From positions 1-64,000 of the forward strand of contig CAMWSS010000003.1 in NCBI GenBank assembly GCA_947177035.1: DNA of 64,000 bases, given 5' to 3'. The notes under the pieces were generated by a model. That model was not told where the DNA came from. It did not search any database and was given only the letters and a program-made list of their open reading frames with translations. Shown here in pieces: positions 5,323 through 51,757 of the stretch (position 1 is its first letter; each line of letters starts with the position of its first letter). This stretch comes from an uncultured Porphyromonadaceae bacterium (lineage in GTDB: Bacteria > Bacteroidota > Bacteroidia > Bacteroidales > Muribaculaceae). Both the position numbers and the translations under genes were made by a program.

Positions 5323-7932
5323 ATGAAAAAGACCCTCTTCAAGTGGCTGATGGCGCTGATGGCGGTGGTTTCCGTCACGGCCATGCAGTCATGCAAAGAC
5401 GACGGACCCGACGACAACGGCGGCGGACTCGGCAAATATGACTTCACGATAGCCGAAGACGACCTCTATCATAGCGTCGACAAAAATGGCGGACAGATCG
5501 AGATCGACATCCTGACGAGCCTGCCCAAAACACAATGGACGGTAGAATACGACGCCAACTGGCTCATGGCCATGCAGGGGTCGACCATCGACGGCCACGC
5601 ATCGCTCACGATCAACGTGCAGCCCAATTCCGACAACCGGCGCGAGGCCACAGTGAAAGTCAGCAGCCTGACCCGCAACTACAACATCACCATCCGCCAG
5701 TATGGAGTCAACGGCGTCGAGGCCGAAGAGGACTTCCAGGTGAAACCGACCGGAGCGACGGCATCGTCGGAACAGCCGGGCAGCGGCGAAATCAAATACA
5801 GCTATGACGACGATCCGGAGACAATGTATCACTCGCACTGGACCAACACCCGGATGCCGGTGACGCTGGAATATTACTTCTCCGGCCAGGAGTCGATCGA
5901 CTATATCGACTATGTGCCCCGCATGGGCGGCGGCAACGGCGCTTTCGGCAAGCTCAGCGTCGAGGTGGCAACCAATGCTTCACGCAGCAACTATCAGTCT
6001 ATCGGCGATTTCGACTTCCAGGAGCAGGCCACATCAAGCCGCATCAACCTGCCTGAGAGCATGAAAGCCACCGGCGTGAAATTCATCGTCAAGTCCGGAA
6101 CCGGCGGATTCGCGTCGTGTGCCGAGATGAAGTTCTGGCGCCGCAACACCGACCGCAAGCTCGACAAGGAGCTGCTGACGGTGTTTACCGACCTGACCTG
6201 CACCGAGCTGAAACCGGGTGTAGGGCCTGAAGAGATCGGCGCCCTGAGCAACGAGTTCTTCCAGGATCTGGCCGAGATCATACGCACCGACTCTTATGAC
6301 CCGATCGAGAAGCTGATCCGCATCCACGAATATGAACCGTATTCCAACCCCGTGGAATGGGCCGAGAAGCTGATGACCAAGATATACAGCAATCTCGACA
6401 ACCCGATGGGCATACACGTCACCAAAGGCCAGACCGTGATCCTGTGTGTAGGCCCGACCCACGGCCACAGCGTGTCGGTTATGTGTGTGGGCGAGCACAA
6501 GGCGTCGGGCAGCGACGACTATGCCATCCCCGATGCCTCAGGCCCGTCGTATCTGCTGACCGAGGGCGTCAACGTGCTCACGATGACCTCCGACGGCCAG
6601 CTGTTCCTGATGTACACCGCCGATCCTTCGCAGCCGAAGATCAAGGTGCACGTTCCCGTCGGCGACAACGGCCGCCTGGCCGGCTACTTCGACCTGAAGG
6701 AGCACAAGACCGACGAAATGTATAAGAAGATCGTGGCAAAGGCCACCCACAAATACTTCGTCGTGAAGGGCGAGCGCATGATGTTCATGTTCCACCGCAA
6801 CAGCCTGGCCTGCTCGTCGATGGTGAGCGCCATCCAGACCTGGGACCAGTTCGTGAAATGGCAGCAGGACTTCATGGGCATCGACGATGTGCGCCCCTCG
6901 AAGTGGAACAACCACCTGATGGGAGTGTCGATGGAAGGAGCCTACATGTGGGCCAGCAACTGGCGCATGGGCTTCATCAACACATATCTCGGCAACATCC
7001 TTGAATATAACCAGCTGATGGCCGAAGAGGACAACGCCTGGGGTCCCAACCACGAGATGGGCCACGTCAACCAGCTGGCCATCAACTGGATCTCGACCAC
7101 CGAGAGCTCCAACAACCTCTTCTCCAACTATGTGCTCCACAAGCTCGGCAAATACAAGAGCCGCGGCAAGGGCCTGATGTACCGCCACGAAAACATGTAC
7201 CGGTACGATGAATGCTGGGCCAACTTCACCTGGCACGACACCGGACTCTATCAGGGCGAGGACGCCGAACTGCACATGCGCATGAACTGGCAGCTCTGGA
7301 ACTATTACCACCGCGTGCTCGGCGACGAAAAATTCTTTGCCCGCGTCTTCCAGAAGATGCGCGAAGTGGGCCTGAGCGAAGGCGAGGATCCCGGCCGCAA
7401 GCAGCTGGAATATGCCAAGGCCTGCGCCGACGCAGCCGGCGAGGACCTGACCGACTTCTTCGAAGCCTGGGGCTTCTTCCGTCCGATCACCACCACGGTA
7501 GAGCAATACGGCACTTATACCTATCGCGTCACCCAGACCATGATCAACTCGGCCAAGAGCCACATGGCCCAGTATCCCAAACCCCGACACGCGTTTGAGT
7601 ATATCGAAGACCGCCATGCGTCGGAGTTCCCGACCGGCGACTACCGCTACTCGACAGTCGGCGACGTCGGCCACTATTCGACATATGCCGAAAACAAGCA
7701 GCTTTCGGGCGGCATCTCGGCCAACATCAACGGACGCACCGTCAAGATCAACAATGGCAACGAGGCAGTGGCCTTCGAGGTGCGCACTGTCGGCAACGAC
7801 GGTTCTTACGGCGAAATCCGCTGGGCATCTAACTTCCTGACCTTCACCGTGCCGTCAGAAGTCAACATAAGCGGCACCGCCCTCTATGCGGTGCAGGCCG
7901 ACGGCCAACGCCGACAGCTGGGCAAGTTCTGA
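5323..7932 (+). CDS. M60-like (enhancin family) metallopeptidase lipoprotein with BACON and F5/8-type C-like domains
   Basis: Lipobox TAMQSC; BACON-like GGQIEIDILTS...WTVEYDANW...NRREATVKVSS; zinc motif NHEMGHVNQ. Confidence 0.85.
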   Translation: MKKTLFKWLMALMAVVSVTAMQSCKDDGPDDNGGGLGKYDFTIAEDDLYHSVDKNGGQIEIDILTSLPKTQWTVEYDANWLMAMQGSTIDGHASLTINVQPNSDNRREATVKVSSLTRNYNITIRQYGVNGVEAEEDFQVKPTGATASSEQPGSGEIKYSYDDDPETMYHSHWTNTRMPVTLEYYFSGQESIDYIDYVPRMGGGNGAFGKLSVEVATNASRSNYQSIGDFDFQEQATSSRINLPESMKATGVKFIVKSGTGGFASCAEMKFWRRNTDRKLDKELLTVFTDLTCTELKPGVGPEEIGALSNEFFQDLAEIIRTDSYDPIEKLIRIHEYEPYSNPVEWAEKLMTKIYSNLDNPMGIHVTKGQTVILCVGPTHGHSVSVMCVGEHKASGSDDYAIPDASGPSYLLTEGVNVLTMTSDGQLFLMYTADPSQPKIKVHVPVGDNGRLAGYFDLKEHKTDEMYKKIVAKATHKYFVVKGERMMFMFHRNSLACSSMVSAIQTWDQFVKWQQDFMGIDDVRPSKWNNHLMGVSMEGAYMWASNWRMGFINTYLGNILEYNQLMAEEDNAWGPNHEMGHVNQLAINWISTTESSNNLFSNYVLHKLGKYKSRGKGLMYRHENMYRYDECWANFTWHDTGLYQGEDAELHMRMNWQLWNYYHRVLGDEKFFARVFQKMREVGLSEGEDPGRKQLEYAKACADAAGEDLTDFFEAWGFFRPITTTVEQYGTYTYRVTQTMINSAKSHMAQYPKPRHAFEYIEDRHASEFPTGDYRYSTVGDVGHYSTYAENKQLSGGISANINGRTVKINNGNEAVAFEVRTVGNDGSYGEIRWASNFLTFTVPSEVNISGTALYAVQADGQRRQLGKF

Positions 7933-26150: not shown

Positions 26151-26696
26151 ATGAGCGATTTAATCCCCAACAGAGGCAATTACAAGAAACTTTTGAGTTA
26201 TCAAAAAGCCGATGTTATTTATCAAATCACTTACTATTTCGCTGAACACTATATTCCTTATGGCGACAGGACTAAGGACCAGATGATTCAGGCGGCTCGT
26301 AGCGGGAAGCAAAATATCATCGAAGGATGTGCAGCTTCTTCCACGTCTGCCAAGACTGAAATTAAGCTTGTCAATGTGGCTAAAGCAAGCCTGAAGGAAT
26401 TGCTCGAGGACTATGAGGATTATCTAAAGACTCATAATAAACCTCAATGGCTCAAAGGATGTTTGGAATTTGAGGCAATGCGAAAACTTGGCAGAGAGCA
26501 CAATGACGCCGAATTTTTCATGAACTTAATAGTAAGACGCCCACCCGAAACGATAGCCAACATGGCTATTATTCTAATCAATCAGGCCGACTACTTGCTC
26601 TTTAGACAACTTGAGAAATTATCAGAAGGATTTATTAATAATGGTGGGTTCTCAGAAAGAATGTCAACACTTCGTCGCAACAATCGCGGCTACTAA
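26151..26696 (+). CDS. Four-helix-bundle protein (four helix bundle suffix/S23-like)
   Basis: [80 protein letters not shown]. Confidence 0.8.
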
Positions 26697-26716
26697 ATAA
26701 CTATTTTCTCCTGATT

Positions 26717-27268
26717 ATGACACAGAACGAGATTGACCGCTTGAGCATTGAGAAGGCCAAGGCGCTTTTCTCGACAGGCAAAGTGTATGAGATTGAGGTC
26801 GGCACTACTGCCGGACTTCAAGTTATTCATCGCGCGCTGTTTGATGGACTTTATCCATTTGCAGGTGAAATACGCAAATTAAATATATCAAAAGGCGGTT
26901 TTCGTTTTGCCTACTCTCTCTACCTTATACCGGCACTTGAAGCAATTGAAAAGATGCCGGAAACGACGTTTGAGGAAATCATTGCCAAGTACGTTGAGAT
27001 GAACATAGCCCACCCATTTATGGAGGGAAACGGACGAGCTACCCGGATATGGCTCGACATGATGCTTCGCCGTGCGCTCGACAAAGTCGTTGACTGGCGT
27101 CAGATCACTCGCGAAGCCTATATGCAGGCCATGGAACGCTCCCCTATCAACGATCTTGAACTCCGCTTTCTCCTCCAAAACGCCCTCACCGCGGGAACCG
27201 ACGACCGCGACATAATTTTCCACGGCCTCGACCAATCCTACTATTACGAAGGCTACGAACCCGAATAA
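26717..27268 (+). CDS. Fic/DOC family protein, class III-like
   Basis: Fic motif [17 protein letters not shown]-terminal SYYYEG fits [S/T]xxxE[G/N]. Confidence 0.9.
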
Positions 27269-27366
27269 ACGGGCAATCAAAGCGAGTATTCACTTTGTTG
27301 ACAAACGATTCCCAACGGACCGATCTGATAATTGAAAAACAAAGAAATAAGTGGCGATGGCCCTGA

Positions 27367-28929
27367 TCAGAGGCCGAGCGCGGAGCGTATGGCCGAGCGA
27401 AGACGCGCGGCGTGCGCGCCGTTGGCCTTCAGCAGATTGAGGATGGCAGTGATATAGCTCTGCTTGTCGCCACAGCCGGTCAGTGACGACACGTTGCTCT
27501 GCGGGAGCATCGACTTCTGATTGTAGACCCTGAGCACCGATGCATAGTCGTCGGCATCGAGATATCCGTGGAACTCGCGGCAGAAGTTTTCATAGGTGGC
27601 GCGGGGATTTATGAAGTCCACCAGATCGGCAAGATGATCTTCAAGTCTGGAAATGTTGGCAAACCGGCCGTCGATGCGGTGCTCGACAGTGTGCTTGACA
27701 ACATGGCGGGTGTGAAGCAGCGCCTGCTGGCGCAGATCGGCCTTGAACATGGCCATCACAGCCGCTTTGGTTTTGGCAAAAGCGCGTTCTTCGTCACGGC
27801 GGTGGGCGGCGGCCACGGTCTTGATCACCTCCTCGAGCATCAGCAGATTTTCAATTTCAGCCACCTCCGGCACCATCACGCGTTTGCGTCTGAGGTATTC
27901 TACCTCCTGGGCCGAGCGGCGGTCCCGGTCAACTATGCCGCAACTGTCCAGATGATGAAACGCGCCAAGCGAATTAAACACCCTGACCGACTCGATCACG
28001 CGGTCGCACGACCCGAGCGCCTTGACCGTATATTCCGGGAATATAAGCGGATAAAGTTTGGCGTCGATCGATCGGGTGTCGTCGCCTTCAATAAACATTA
28101 CCGGACGCCGCGAACCGAGAATGGTCATATAGAGCTCTTCGCTCAACTGCGTGTCGGGCGGCAGCAGATCATAGTCATAGGCCGAACCGTCGGGCGAGCA
28201 GCCTCTCACCCATACGGTAGTGGCCGCCGAGCGTGTGGAGGCGAAATCAAGGTCATGAGTGGCATAGATGAAGCGGCAGTCCGGACGAAGCGCCTCCACC
28301 CGGTCCCACACAAGGCGCATGGTCGACGGGTGGAGGAACATTCCGGGAGAATCAACGGGAATTATGGCTTCGGCAGGGGCGTGAAGAACGGCGCCGAGAT
28401 AATAGAGCACAAGCTTCTCGCCGGTCGAGAGCTTCATGCGAGGACGCGACGCGCCTGAACGGTCGGTGAAAAGCAGTTCTCCGCCACTGCGCAACACTCC
28501 GTTGTCTGGAAATATTTCCTGCCACATGGCCAGCACGCGGTCGATCATCGTTTCCGGCATGTCGCCCTTGCCGCCACGCTCGATCTTGAATTTCAGCAGA
28601 TTGACCACCTCTTCCGAGATCATCAGAGCCACAAGGCGTTCAAACTGGGTGGCCGGCGCGGTCCATCCGCCTCCGTGGAGCAGCGGAGATTCGGCCATGG
28701 CGGCGGCAAACTGTCCGTCGAGCGACGCCGGGGCGGCATCGCCGTCAAACGCGCCGAACAGTGCCTTCAGCGGCGACAGCGGAAAGACTTTGGCCTGGTC
28801 GGCGTCGGCAAGCATCCGGTCAACAAACCGGGACTTGCCGGAACCATTGGCGCCTATCACAAGAAGTTGCCTGGCAGAGTCGGGCAGAATCGGAGCGGGC
28901 TTACCGTCAAGACGAGGAGGCAGGAACAT
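27367..28929 (-). CDS. ABC-type ATPase fused to TOPRIM/DUF4435-like domain (candidate single-chain PARIS-like protein)
   Basis: Walker A GANGSGKS; signature LSTGEK; Walker-B-like AIIPVDSPGMFLHP; H-loop ATHDLDF; TOPRIM-like FIEGDDT ... GIVDRDRR ... AEIENLLM. Confidence 0.75.
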   Translation of the reverse strand: MFLPPRLDGKPAPILPDSARQLLVIGANGSGKSRFVDRMLADADQAKVFPLSPLKALFGAFDGDAAPASLDGQFAAAMAESPLLHGGGWTAPATQFERLVALMISEEVVNLLKFKIERGGKGDMPETMIDRVLAMWQEIFPDNGVLRSGGELLFTDRSGASRPRMKLSTGEKLVLYYLGAVLHAPAEAIIPVDSPGMFLHPSTMRLVWDRVEALRPDCRFIYATHDLDFASTRSAATTVWVRGCSPDGSAYDYDLLPPDTQLSEELYMTILGSRRPVMFIEGDDTRSIDAKLYPLIFPEYTVKALGSCDRVIESVRVFNSLGAFHHLDSCGIVDRDRRSAQEVEYLRRKRVMVPEVAEIENLLMLEEVIKTVAAAHRRDEERAFAKTKAAVMAMFKADLRQQALLHTRHVVKHTVEHRIDGRFANISRLEDHLADLVDFINPRATYENFCREFHGYLDADDYASVLRVYNQKSMLPQSNVSSLTGCGDKQSYITAILNLLKANGAHAARLRSAIRSALGL

Positions 28930-28950: not shown

Positions 28951-29565
28951 TTATTGATGACCGGCAAGACGGGCCACGTATTTGCCGATGATGTCAAATT
29001 CGAGATTGACGACAGAACCTTCTTCTATGCAACGGAAGTTGGTATGTTCGAGCGTGTAAGGGATAATGGCCACTCGAAACGACCGGTCGGTCGAATCGCA
29101 AACGGTCAGGCTCACGCCATTGACCGTCACCGAGCCTTTCTCCACAGTGAAGTAGCCTTTGGCTGCAAGCTGCGGGTCGACGTCATATTCAAACGTGAAA
29201 TATATGCTGCCGTCCATCGGCTCGCGGGCGGTGCACCGGGCGGTGCAGTCCACGTGGCCCTGCACGATGTGGCCGTCAAGCCGGCCGTTCATCAGCATCG
29301 AGCGCTCCAGATTCACTTCATCGCCGGCTTTGAGCAGACCGAGATTGGAGCGGCGCAGAGTCTCCTCCACCGCCGTCACGCGATAGACCGACTGCGCCTT
29401 GTCCACTTCCACAACGGTCAGACACACGCCGTTGTGGGCCACCGACTGATCTATTTTCAGTTCGGAAGCCATCTGGGCGTGCATGACCAGATCGACGTTG
29501 CCGCCTTTCGGCTCTACAGCCACCACGCGGGCGGCCTCTTCTACTATTCCGGAAAACATCAGCAC
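28951..29565 (-). CDS. ribE: Riboflavin synthase alpha chain
   Basis: MFSGIVEEAA; duplicated lumazine-binding barrels (VAHNGVCLTVV; VTVNGVSLTV). Confidence 0.95.
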   Translation of the reverse strand: MLMFSGIVEEAARVVAVEPKGGNVDLVMHAQMASELKIDQSVAHNGVCLTVVEVDKAQSVYRVTAVEETLRRSNLGLLKAGDEVNLERSMLMNGRLDGHIVQGHVDCTARCTAREPMDGSIYFTFEYDVDPQLAAKGYFTVEKGSVTVNGVSLTVCDSTDRSFRVAIIPYTLEHTNFRCIEEGSVVNLEFDIIGKYVARLAGHQ

Positions 29566-48176: not shown

Positions 48177-48716
48177 TCAGATTTTCGAGAGAGCGCCGGT
48201 GACGGAGTCCATGATGTAGCCGGCGACGCGCACGTCTTTGGCCATCAGTGGGTGATTGCGTATCAGATCGACGGTTTCGGCCACGGCATCGGCCGTGTCG
48301 GTGAATCCGTGCAGCCAACCGTTGAGGTCTATGCCGCAGTGGCGCATCAGCGATATGTGCTCTTCGTCGACTCCACGCCCGCGCATCAGCTGGAGCATCT
48401 CTTCGGCATCCATGTCCTGCACGCCGCATCCGGTGTGGCCAATGACCATGATCTCGTCGACTCCGAGTTCATAGACGGCCACAAGGAGCGATCGCATTGT
48501 GCTGTCGAAGGGGTTGGTGATGGTTCCGCCGGCGTTTTTTATCATTTTGACATCGCCGTTTCTGAGACCGAGGGCCGCTGGAAGCAGTTCGACAAGGCGA
48601 GTGTCCATGCAGGTCACGATAGCGATGCGTTTGTCGGGATATTTTGAAGTGGCGAAGCGTTCGTAGCCTTTGGAGGCCACGAATTCGCGGTTGTATTGAA
48701 GCAGTTCGTCAATCAT
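48177..48716 (-). CDS. Beta-carbonic anhydrase
   Basis: IAIVTCMDTRLVELLPAALGLRNGDVKMIKNAGGTI (CxDxR); MVIGHTGCGVQDMD (HxxC). Confidence 0.93.
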   Translation of the reverse strand: MIDELLQYNREFVASKGYERFATSKYPDKRIAIVTCMDTRLVELLPAALGLRNGDVKMIKNAGGTITNPFDSTMRSLLVAVYELGVDEIMVIGHTGCGVQDMDAEEMLQLMRGRGVDEEHISLMRHCGIDLNGWLHGFTDTADAVAETVDLIRNHPLMAKDVRVAGYIMDSVTGALSKI

Positions 48717-51700
48717 TTCGGTTTAACAGGTGTGAATCGCGGGGTGCGTATACGAGGTTTCAGTTCTCCGCCCATGAGCAGCATGGTGCGTCCGCCGTCA
48801 ATGACGGCAGTGGCGGCGCCGGCGCGCGCATAGTCCGGCTCCCGGTTTCCGATGACCCAGCGGTCGGTCTGGGGGTCAAACACGCAGACCCGTCCGTTGA
48901 AGCGATACCATTCCTTGGGATGCGAGAGATAATCGTCGGGCTGGCTGCGGAGCGCGTTGAGGAAGACTTCGCGGTTGACTCCTCCAGTGCACACGATCTT
49001 GCCGCCGATGCATTCAGCCACACCGCCTCCAAGGCTGATCTTGGTGCGTCCGACGGTGGGAGCCGGCAGCATTGACCAAGAGTCGGAAGCGGGATCATAG
49101 CGGATTCCGTCGCATTGCAGCGTCGGCGAGTCATAGCCCTCATGGCGGGGCGCGAATCCGCCCCAGAGGTAGAGCCGTCCGTCAGGAGCGGCGGCCATTA
49201 CCGGCTGCACGCGCGGGTTGCCGGGCATGTCGGCCAGGCGGGTCCATCCGGCAGGGATGTCGGCCAGATCGAGCGACAGGAGTCCCCGCCAGGGTTTTCC
49301 GTCGGCGTTTCCTCCGGCCACAAATATTTTGGTGCCCACTGCGGCAGCATATGCGTTGTCAACGGCCACCGGCAGGTCGGGGAGCGGCTCAAGCACGGCC
49401 ATTGAGTCGGCATCGAGAGTGAGCAGCCAGGCCGAGCGCAAGCCCTCGCCACCGATCATGGCCAGGCCAAGCGGCGTTGCAGCCGATGCGCCATAGGCCG
49501 TCGGTTGCGGCAATTCGCCGATCCGCTTTCCGTCGGTGGCCCGATAGATGCCTTTGTAGTAGACTTTTTCAATTCCTGGCGCCAGCGGGTCGTCATAGGG
49601 GAAATTGCATCCGCCGGCAATGACCGGCACGTCGCCGACCGATCCACCGAAAGCGGCAGACACGCCATGCTCCAGACCACGTTCTGTCACGTTGGCCTCT
49701 ACACGGAAAGTCGATGCGGGAAGCGAATCCGAATTCACAAGATTGGCTTTTGTAAATGGCTGCCAGCCATAGCGGGCAAAACGGGGATTTTTCATATCAG
49801 GATTTGTAAGTAAAATGGTGTCGGATTTTATAGTTGCGCTGGCCGGAAGATAGAATCCTTCGGTTTCGGCGATTTCAAATGTGAGCGGCGATGATCCGTC
49901 GGAGGTGGTCATTCCTCCGGCATCGGCCATGATGAGTCTGATCTCTCCGGGAAGCGCCTCGGCCTTGACGGGGTTCGGGCCGCGCGCCGCGACGTGGTCC
50001 ATGCCATAGACGTCGTGGAGGGCCAGCCGGGCCAGCCGGCGGCCGACGGGCGCCTTGCGCTTCGGGTGCACGTCGTGCGGGTCACCGACGTCGTGCGTCA
50101 CTGCCATGCCGACTCCCGGAATGTTTTCGGCCAGTCGACGCTGGCTGTCGCGGAAGGCGGGCCATGACGGGCGGCCGAGGCTGCTGAGCTGGGTGGTGAG
50201 AAACGGCAGGTCGGGGCGGCCGAATTCCTTGCGCCATGAGCTGACCAGAAGCGGGAAGAGGGTTTCGTGCACTTCGGCGTTGTGGGCGTTGCTTTCGCCC
50301 TGATACCATATCACGCCCGAGACCGGATAGGCACCCAGCGGTCTGATGCCGGCATGAAACAGGTATGACGGTTCATAGGGGTGACGGTGGCCGCTCTGGC
50401 GTCCGCCGATATTCTCGGCGGCACGTTCCTGCACCCAGGGCTGGACATAGTGGTTGCCGAGCCAGTCGAGCAGGATTTCGGGCAGACCGTGGCGCAGAGT
50501 CTCGATGTCGATGAAGCTTTCGGTTCCGGCTCCGCCGACCGGATTGGAGATGATGCCCACGGGCACCTGGAGCGAGTCGGCGAGCATGGCTCCGAAGTGC
50601 CAGGCCACGGCCGAGAACCGACCGTCGGGCGCCGCCCACTTTGCCGGCAGATAATAATCGAGGGTGTCGACCGCAGCCAGCACGCTGTCGGGCCACTGGC
50701 CCGCGGCGGGACGCACACGGTCGCTCATCCGAAACACCCGCAGCAGCGGGTTTCCTGCCGGGTCGGCCGGAGCATCGTCGCTCCAGTCCAGCTGGAACTC
50801 CATGTTGCTCTGGCCCGACGCGATCCAGACCTCGCCGGCCATCACGTCGGCAAACCGCAGCGTGGTGTGTCCGTCGGTCACCGTCATTTCATATGGTCCG
50901 CCGGCTTTCAGCGGCGGCAGAGTCACCTGCCAGCGTCCGAGATTGTCGGCCCTTGCGGAGCTTGTGGCCCCGGCCAGAGTCACGGTCACTTCGGCGCCTG
51001 AATCGGCCCGTCCGCCCAGTTTCAGGAAGCGGTCACGCGGCAGCACCATCGAGTCGCCATAGACAGGCGGAAGCGCCAGTCCGCCCCAGCGACCGGTAAT
51101 TGCTCCGCGCACATAGTCGGCCATGAGCACGGTTCCTTCGGGCACGGGATGCAGATTGTCGGGCAGCAGTTCCGGACGTCCGTCGAGCGGCTCGGCAAAG
51201 TCGATCAGCTCGACGCCTGTGTGTCGGGCCACTCCGGCGATCCGCTCCCGGATCAGGTCGCGCCACTGGCGCGTGCCCGACTTGAAGCGGCGGTGTGCGG
51301 TTCCGATCGGAGCCATGTTGGCCACGATGATCCTCACGTTCGGATTTATGGTCCGCAGAGTGTCGATCAGCCAGCAATAGTCGGTCGAGAAGGAGTCAGA
51401 CCAGTGTGGCCAGTCGCGCGGATCGGTGTCGTTCGTGCCGAGATGGATCACGGCGATGTCGGGGGCGAATTCAAAAGCCCTTGCCGCCTCGGCGGTTTTG
51501 TGCCACGGGTTGTGGCCGTTGCGCAGCAGGGTGGCGCCGTTGCGTCCGAAGTTGCCGACTTCGAAATCAGAGCCGAGCATCTGTTGCAGACGCGCCGGAT
51601 ATGACTGAGTGTCGCGGTCGGGCAATCTGTCGCCATAGGTTATGCTGTTGCCGATGCACGCCACCTTAACCCGGTCTGTCGTGGCGGCGCATACCGCCGG

Positions 51701-51757
51701 CGCAGCGGCCAGTGCCGCCGCAGCCCAGAGAATCGTCTTGCGGATACGTCGTCCCAT
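48713..51757 (-). CDS. SGNH hydrolase - sialate O-acetylesterase - kelch/cyclically-permuted mutarotase fusion
   Basis: 1014 aa; N-terminal VACIGNSITYGDRL...LGTNDTD; middle GEVWIASGQSNMEFQL and VIWYQGESNA; C-terminal kelch blades (AGGCNFPYDDP, FVAGGNADGKPW, LYLWGGFAP). Confidence 0.85.
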   Translation of the reverse strand: MGRRIRKTILWAAAALAAAPAVCAATTDRVKVACIGNSITYGDRLPDRDTQSYPARLQQMLGSDFEVGNFGRNGATLLRNGHNPWHKTAEAARAFEFAPDIAVIHLGTNDTDPRDWPHWSDSFSTDYCWLIDTLRTINPNVRIIVANMAPIGTAHRRFKSGTRQWRDLIRERIAGVARHTGVELIDFAEPLDGRPELLPDNLHPVPEGTVLMADYVRGAITGRWGGLALPPVYGDSMVLPRDRFLKLGGRADSGAEVTVTLAGATSSARADNLGRWQVTLPPLKAGGPYEMTVTDGHTTLRFADVMAGEVWIASGQSNMEFQLDWSDDAPADPAGNPLLRVFRMSDRVRPAAGQWPDSVLAAVDTLDYYLPAKWAAPDGRFSAVAWHFGAMLADSLQVPVGIISNPVGGAGTESFIDIETLRHGLPEILLDWLGNHYVQPWVQERAAENIGGRQSGHRHPYEPSYLFHAGIRPLGAYPVSGVIWYQGESNAHNAEVHETLFPLLVSSWRKEFGRPDLPFLTTQLSSLGRPSWPAFRDSQRRLAENIPGVGMAVTHDVGDPHDVHPKRKAPVGRRLARLALHDVYGMDHVAARGPNPVKAEALPGEIRLIMADAGGMTTSDGSSPLTFEIAETEGFYLPASATIKSDTILLTNPDMKNPRFARYGWQPFTKANLVNSDSLPASTFRVEANVTERGLEHGVSAAFGGSVGDVPVIAGGCNFPYDDPLAPGIEKVYYKGIYRATDGKRIGELPQPTAYGASAATPLGLAMIGGEGLRSAWLLTLDADSMAVLEPLPDLPVAVDNAYAAAVGTKIFVAGGNADGKPWRGLLSLDLADIPAGWTRLADMPGNPRVQPVMAAAPDGRLYLWGGFAPRHEGYDSPTLQCDGIRYDPASDSWSMLPAPTVGRTKISLGGGVAECIGGKIVCTGGVNREVFLNALRSQPDDYLSHPKEWYRFNGRVCVFDPQTDRWVIGNREPDYARAGAATAVIDGGRTMLLMGGELKPRIRTPRFTPVKPK

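Follow-up and report, generated by a model that had tools for sequence, protein, structure and literature searches.

The window, a 64,000-nucleotide stretch of DNA from an uncultured Muribaculaceae bacterium, carries on its minus strand the Muribaculaceae orthologue of a chromosomal branch of fused AriAB (class-4 OLD) proteins, which is core in several Bacteroidales families. We favour, with modest confidence, the reading that this gene encodes a vertically inherited TOPRIM nuclease, impaired in ATP hydrolysis and gated by nucleotide, that has a resident role in the cell. The gene, its domains and its motifs are located as follows (window coordinates):

27367..28929, minus strand: open reading frame of 520 aa with an ATG start; single-chain ABC-ATPase and DUF4435/TOPRIM protein, fused AriAB homologue
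28114..28929, minus strand: ABC/AAA_21 ATPase half, residues 1–272, from AAA_21 and Foldseek matches
28831..28854, minus strand: Walker A, GANGSGKS, residues 26–33; G26, A27, N28, G29, G31 and K32 invariant
28414..28431, minus strand: ABC signature, LSTGEK, residues 167–172; S168, G170 and E171 invariant in the alignment
28327..28368, minus strand: degenerate Walker B, AIIPVDSPGMFLHP, residues 188–201; catalytic Glu replaced by Ser194
28252..28263, minus strand: H-loop, ATHD, residues 223–226; His in 63 of 64 aligned sequences
27490..28110, minus strand: DUF4435 domain, residues 274–480; Pfam 83.6 bits
28078..28095, minus strand: TOPRIM catalytic Glu motif, FIEGDD, residues 279–284; E281 invariant in full-length orthologues
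27916..27939, minus strand: TOPRIM DxD motif, GIVDRDRR, residues 331–338; D334, D336 and R338 invariant in the core clade
27847..27864, minus strand: VAEIEN motif, residues 356–361; E358, E360 and N361 invariant

The reading frame is uninterrupted and, by ORF check, a real gene; orthologues keep it open, and all of the motifs quoted in an earlier note on this DNA lie where that note placed them, including the longer forms ATHDLDF (residues 223–229), FIEGDDT (279–285) and AEIENLLM (357–364). The note had read the protein as a single-chain ABC-ATPase with a TOPRIM/DUF4435 portion and had proposed it as a candidate fused PARIS-like protein; the architecture and the family both hold. Pfam matches DUF4435 (E 2.4e-23, 83.6 bits, cut-off 27) and AAA_21 (E 4.8e-7, 30.6 bits, cut-off 27), and the PADLOC fused AriAB model PDLC02982 matches the 520-aa protein at 284.6 bits (E 4e-85); these E-values place the architecture far above chance. 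Both domains of fused AriAB are present in one chain, with the TOPRIM nuclease half occupying residues 273–520, and this is the one DUF4435 protein of the window's own genome.

AlphaFold2 modelled the whole chain (8 sequences) with a mean pLDDT of 84 and a pTM of 0.52, values that indicate reliable domains and an unreliable mutual placement. The best PDB matches of this model are the ABC ATPases of retrons and Septu (PtuA), and OLD (6p74) and GajA (8u7i) align over most of the model in Foldseek. Modelled by itself, the C-terminal half reaches a pLDDT of 90 and a pTM of 0.85, with AriB of E. coli PARIS as its top PDB match (8ux9_A; prob 0.97, E 9.3e-3, TM 0.31). As the E-value is approximately 9e-3 and the TM only 0.31, we grade the predicted fold as AriB-like, a weak match and not proven. 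The TOPRIM character that the note had ascribed to this half is upheld by Pfam DUF4435 and by AriB as the closest fold, though the TM is low. A sequence-only PDB search, with the single protein and with an alignment of the C-terminal half, found no true relative.

The gene is present in 218 of 247 Muribaculaceae genomes, 156 of the 171 good genomes and 29 of 30 genera, nearly always as one copy. Orthologues in the closer set are 46–97% identical, with the frame open; identity to the window protein is 73% in Muribaculaceae bacterium IMSAGC_006 and 53% in Heminiphilus faecis AM35. Every sampled genome of f22 (9/9), f109 (9/9) and f28, f60 and f88 (3/3 each) has a full-length (~515 aa) orthologue; f-numbers are the Bacteroidales family codes of the genome set, and G- and L-numbers its genome and locus codes. 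Within f105 some genera have it and others do not, with about half of the 80 genomes carrying it; the Parabacteroides distasonis orthologue WP_005857298.1 groups with this family. One of four f3 genomes has the gene, and most other Bacteroidales families lack it in an order-wide survey. The gene is cleanly absent from ~9% of good Muribaculaceae genomes and so is unlikely to be strictly essential. Ten of those lacking it still carry menA, and no trace of the gene adjoins it, so the absences are losses rather than assembly gaps at that spot; together with the patchiness in f105, they indicate that the gene is dispensable.

Inheritance is vertical, and not in the patchy manner of PARIS, a system detected in 5.2% of genomes (PMC9122126). 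On a 91-protein tree the 11 group labels can be explained by 10 changes, the fewest that 11 labels allow; on a 65-protein tree, 23 genus or family labels need 23 changes (minimum 22), whilst shuffling the labels gave a mean of 49.6 changes, with none of 200 shuffles as low as 23. The single extra change is a second copy in one genome (L077; G057:C79), nearly identical to L010 of another genus (G009), and reflects either assembly contamination or recent transfer.

Walker B ends in DEPE in every mobile or distant fusion examined, and DEPE is retained in families f28 and f3; it reads EEPE in f105 and Parabacteroides, and EDPE in f22, f60, f88 and f109. In Muribaculaceae, D or E comes first and the next residue is Ser (about two thirds), Asn or Asp; the two Glu counts at that position in the alignment are distant, non-orthologous copies (L079 and L080). 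The Ser that the note had remarked on at this position is therefore real: a non-Glu residue is the rule across Muribaculaceae, so Ser194 is not a sequencing slip. The intact ATPase catalytic residues of PARIS are not found here, as Walker A, signature and His are kept and the Walker B Glu is replaced. Scores against the PADLOC AriAB model are 348–582 bits for the mobile fusions, 414 for P. distasonis, 373 for f109 and 285 for the window protein. ABC ATPases without this Glu can bind ATP and close as dimers, with hydrolysis slowed. Judging by its sequence, hydrolysis in the window protein is probably impaired. An ATPase may stay active without the Walker B Glu, since changing E246 or E247 of Cran1 to alanine had no effect (PMC12796447).

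Against the sister species, dN/dS is 0.045, compared with 0.047 for manA, 0.047 for rel and 0.098 for ribE; other pairs with measurable dS give 0.03–0.10, both halves being constrained and the TOPRIM half slightly more so in most pairs. As the value equals that of manA and rel, there is no arms-race signal, and the diversification expected of a phage-protein sensor is not seen in these pairwise averages, which could hide a few sites. The gene has the attributes of a housekeeping core gene: single copy, vertical inheritance, purifying selection and a conserved neighbourhood. The upstream neighbour in the window is:

28951..29565, minus strand: ribE (riboflavin synthase), 21 bp upstream of the 520-aa gene, same strand

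The same-strand upstream ribE recurs in three other loci of the window's genus, and a divergent upstream ribE is found in f60, f88, f109 and one Muribaculaceae locus. Directly downstream, on the same strand, menA (identified by sequence, without a profile search) is present in 11/11 loci of f28, f60, f88 and f109 and in 19 of 43 loci from Muribaculaceae (two of these being one and the same place), usually at a spacing of <70 bp or with a short overlap; the remaining loci have unrelated, mostly metabolic neighbours. The order ribE, AriAB-like gene, menA is ancestral, shared by four families and part of Muribaculaceae, and the linkage may be mere chromosomal inertia. In the window genome menA is on another contig, and a menA-linked function was rejected, as the window's genus has menA elsewhere.

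PADLOC and Pfam find no defence genes near the 520-aa gene in the window besides an unlinked Fic (the PADLOC scan covered ORFs up to position 51757, leaving out a few small ones). A defence island was considered and discarded, the weak extra PADLOC matches being a PrmC-like methyltransferase and a phosphoribosyltransferase by Pfam. The defence role suggested by the earlier note is accordingly unsupported: the gene is near-universal, vertically inherited and set in a ribE/menA context without defence neighbours in the window. The opposite picture, which the note had held to be incompatible with its proposal, is that of a universally syntenic housekeeping gene outside any defence island; this is largely what we observe, save for the ~9% absence and one patchy family.

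The Fic gene (26717–27268, plus strand) encodes an NmFic-type protein adenylyltransferase (NCBIfam equivalog, 277 bits; PADLOC PDC-S04) and adjoins a gene for a four-helix-bundle-suffix protein. Its linkage to the AriAB-like gene was rejected on two grounds: in the sister species (L036) an extra 3.6 kb lies exactly between the two genes, and Fic sits in a segment of tenfold lower synonymous divergence (0.034 for Fic and 0 for the four-helix gene, against ~0.37 for the AriAB-like gene, ribE, manA and rel, all relative to L036). Positions 26151–27366 (four-helix gene, Fic and gap) mark a recent recombination or transfer boundary. Elsewhere in the window, a large sialic-acid-related esterase/NANM-like protein (48716–51757, minus strand) and an M60 peptidase with F5/8 and BACON domains (5323–7929, plus strand) are probable mucin-degrading enzymes.

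Plasmid or phage copies were found in Synechocystis, Campylobacter, Paraburkholderia, Psychrobacter, Pseudoalteromonas, Rhizobium and an Oenococcus phage. These branch outside the Bacteroidales clade in the 91-protein tree, and the distant homologues on plasmids and one phage adjoin mobile or toxin–antitoxin genes. Within the core clade, the mobile, patchy, defence-hotspot distribution of PARIS is not found. A plasmid location for this clade was rejected, as the sole match, from Parabacteroides distasonis, adjoins uvrA and tldD and looks chromosomal; so was a viral one, as two IMG/VR contigs (one sequence; L121, L122) look like host DNA at a prophage end. On these contigs the Muribaculaceae-type copy lies beside small ORFs, one of them repressor-like, which suggests prophage integration beside the AriAB-like gene. 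More canonical AriAB relatives, with a DEPE Walker B, are L080 (in G039; split in two frames), L142 (G350) and L079 (G008), both second copies, and L147, a fusion on a Paraburkholderia plasmid in tandem with a separate ATPase/DUF4435 pair.

In the mechanism we propose, the ATPase half would still bind ATP and close as an ABC dimer, with slow or no hydrolysis. Nucleotide occupancy would gate the tethered TOPRIM nuclease in a GajA-like manner, with neither a hydrolysis cycle nor release of AriB, and the substrate would most likely be tRNA or another structured RNA, by analogy with AriB; we infer both the gating and the RNA substrate from the relatives. The role would be a resident stress or RNA-processing function, possibly domesticated, rather than that of a mobile anti-phage cassette. 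Inheritance, synteny and selection favour such a resident role, whilst dispensability sustains an immune alternative. We further suggest, tentatively, as a quite possible history, that the ancestor of several Bacteroidales families domesticated a PARIS-type immune ATPase–nuclease as a resident nucleotide-gated RNase with a cellular role, the loss of the Walker B Glu marking the point at which an immune sensor driven by hydrolysis became a static sensor of nucleotide.

The serious rival to this resident role is a PARIS-like immune gene fixed as a vertical, constitutive guard, which would sense a phage protein or a phage-induced state and unleash a TOPRIM tRNase. AriAB family membership, the invariant TOPRIM site, dispensability in Muribaculaceae and the distant copies on plasmids and a phage all accord with it, but the lack of defence neighbours in the window, a core clade that is not mobile, and a housekeeping-level dN/dS without diversification do not. 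The Walker B Glu is also lost, yet ATPase catalytic residues are needed for defence by E. coli PARIS, which ATPase mutants abolish (the mutated residues are not given in the main text; PMC9122126). We consider this rival possible, if rather doubtful.

Walker A, the signature S-x-G-E, the H-loop His, E281, D334, D336 and R338 persist across nearly the whole Bacteroidales clade, a signature exception being S-D-S-E in two members of the f105/f3 branch. Since Walker A, signature and H-loop match the TOPRIM site in invariance, selection still maintains ATP binding, which makes it improbable that the ATPase half is a structural tether and the protein a constitutive, nucleotide-independent, RNase M5-like housekeeping RNase, even though the catalytic Glu is lost beside invariant TOPRIM residues and the active site of AriB resembles that of RNase M5 (PMC12409363). 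A decaying remnant or annotation artefact, suggested by the degenerate Walker B only, has already been refuted by the data on selection and conservation, with the frame open in >200 genomes and dN/dS of 0.03–0.10 in both halves, and we give it practically no credence.

This gene will probably lead annotation tools to report PARIS in almost all Muribaculaceae genomes; such calls would bias counts of gut defence systems, the inheritance and surroundings of the gene not being defence-like. Should domestication be true, a phage-defence nuclease has become core in a dominant gut lineage, and the tree shows which residue changed. A testable question is also opened, namely whether fused AriAB (class unclear, PMC10568477) needs ATP hydrolysis. 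We found no paper describing this branch in the searchable literature, though others may exist.

Among known systems, PARIS (AriA and AriB; class-4 OLD; E. coli B185) has an ABC ATPase and a DUF4435/TOPRIM protein in common with the window protein. In PARIS, an AriA hexamer holds AriB and frees it on sensing a phage protein, whereupon AriB dimers cut tRNA (PMC12409363, PMC11455837). The window protein, by contrast, is one chain, so its AriB part is not releasable; its catalytic Glu is lost, and its gene is not mobile. AriA has 464 aa, with signature to H-loop at 365–430, whereas the ATPase half here has ~272 aa, with the same stretch at 162–227, so ~200 AriA residues are absent; the window protein does not have the size of AriA, which forms the trigger-sensing hexamer. 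By profile it belongs to the AriAB/DUF4435 family, and it departs from PARIS in the Glu, the AriA-size sensor and the mobile, patchy spread. The fused AriAB proteins of Campylobacter, Synechocystis, Paraburkholderia, Psychrobacter and Oenococcus phage phi9805 have the same one-chain layout (24–33% identity) and are also compact, but differ in their canonical DEPE, higher PADLOC scores and plasmid or phage location.

GajA (Gabija) and class-1 OLD proteins likewise join ABC and TOPRIM in a single chain, and GajA works without ATP hydrolysis and is inhibited by nucleotide (PMC10568477). Given the fused chain, the shorter ATPase and the probably impaired hydrolysis, GajA is a better model than PARIS, although the window TOPRIM is of the DUF4435 kind, GajA is a DNase, and no UvrD/PcrA/Rep-like GajB helicase is adjacent, the neighbours being ribE and Fic. 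Cran1, a Sulfolobales OLD-family ATPase, differs in being archaeal, of another subfamily and a DNA nickase with Walker B acidic residues present, but it is lineage-fixed and is reported to be essential in the cell cycle and not to act in defence (PMC12796447), and thus offers a precedent.
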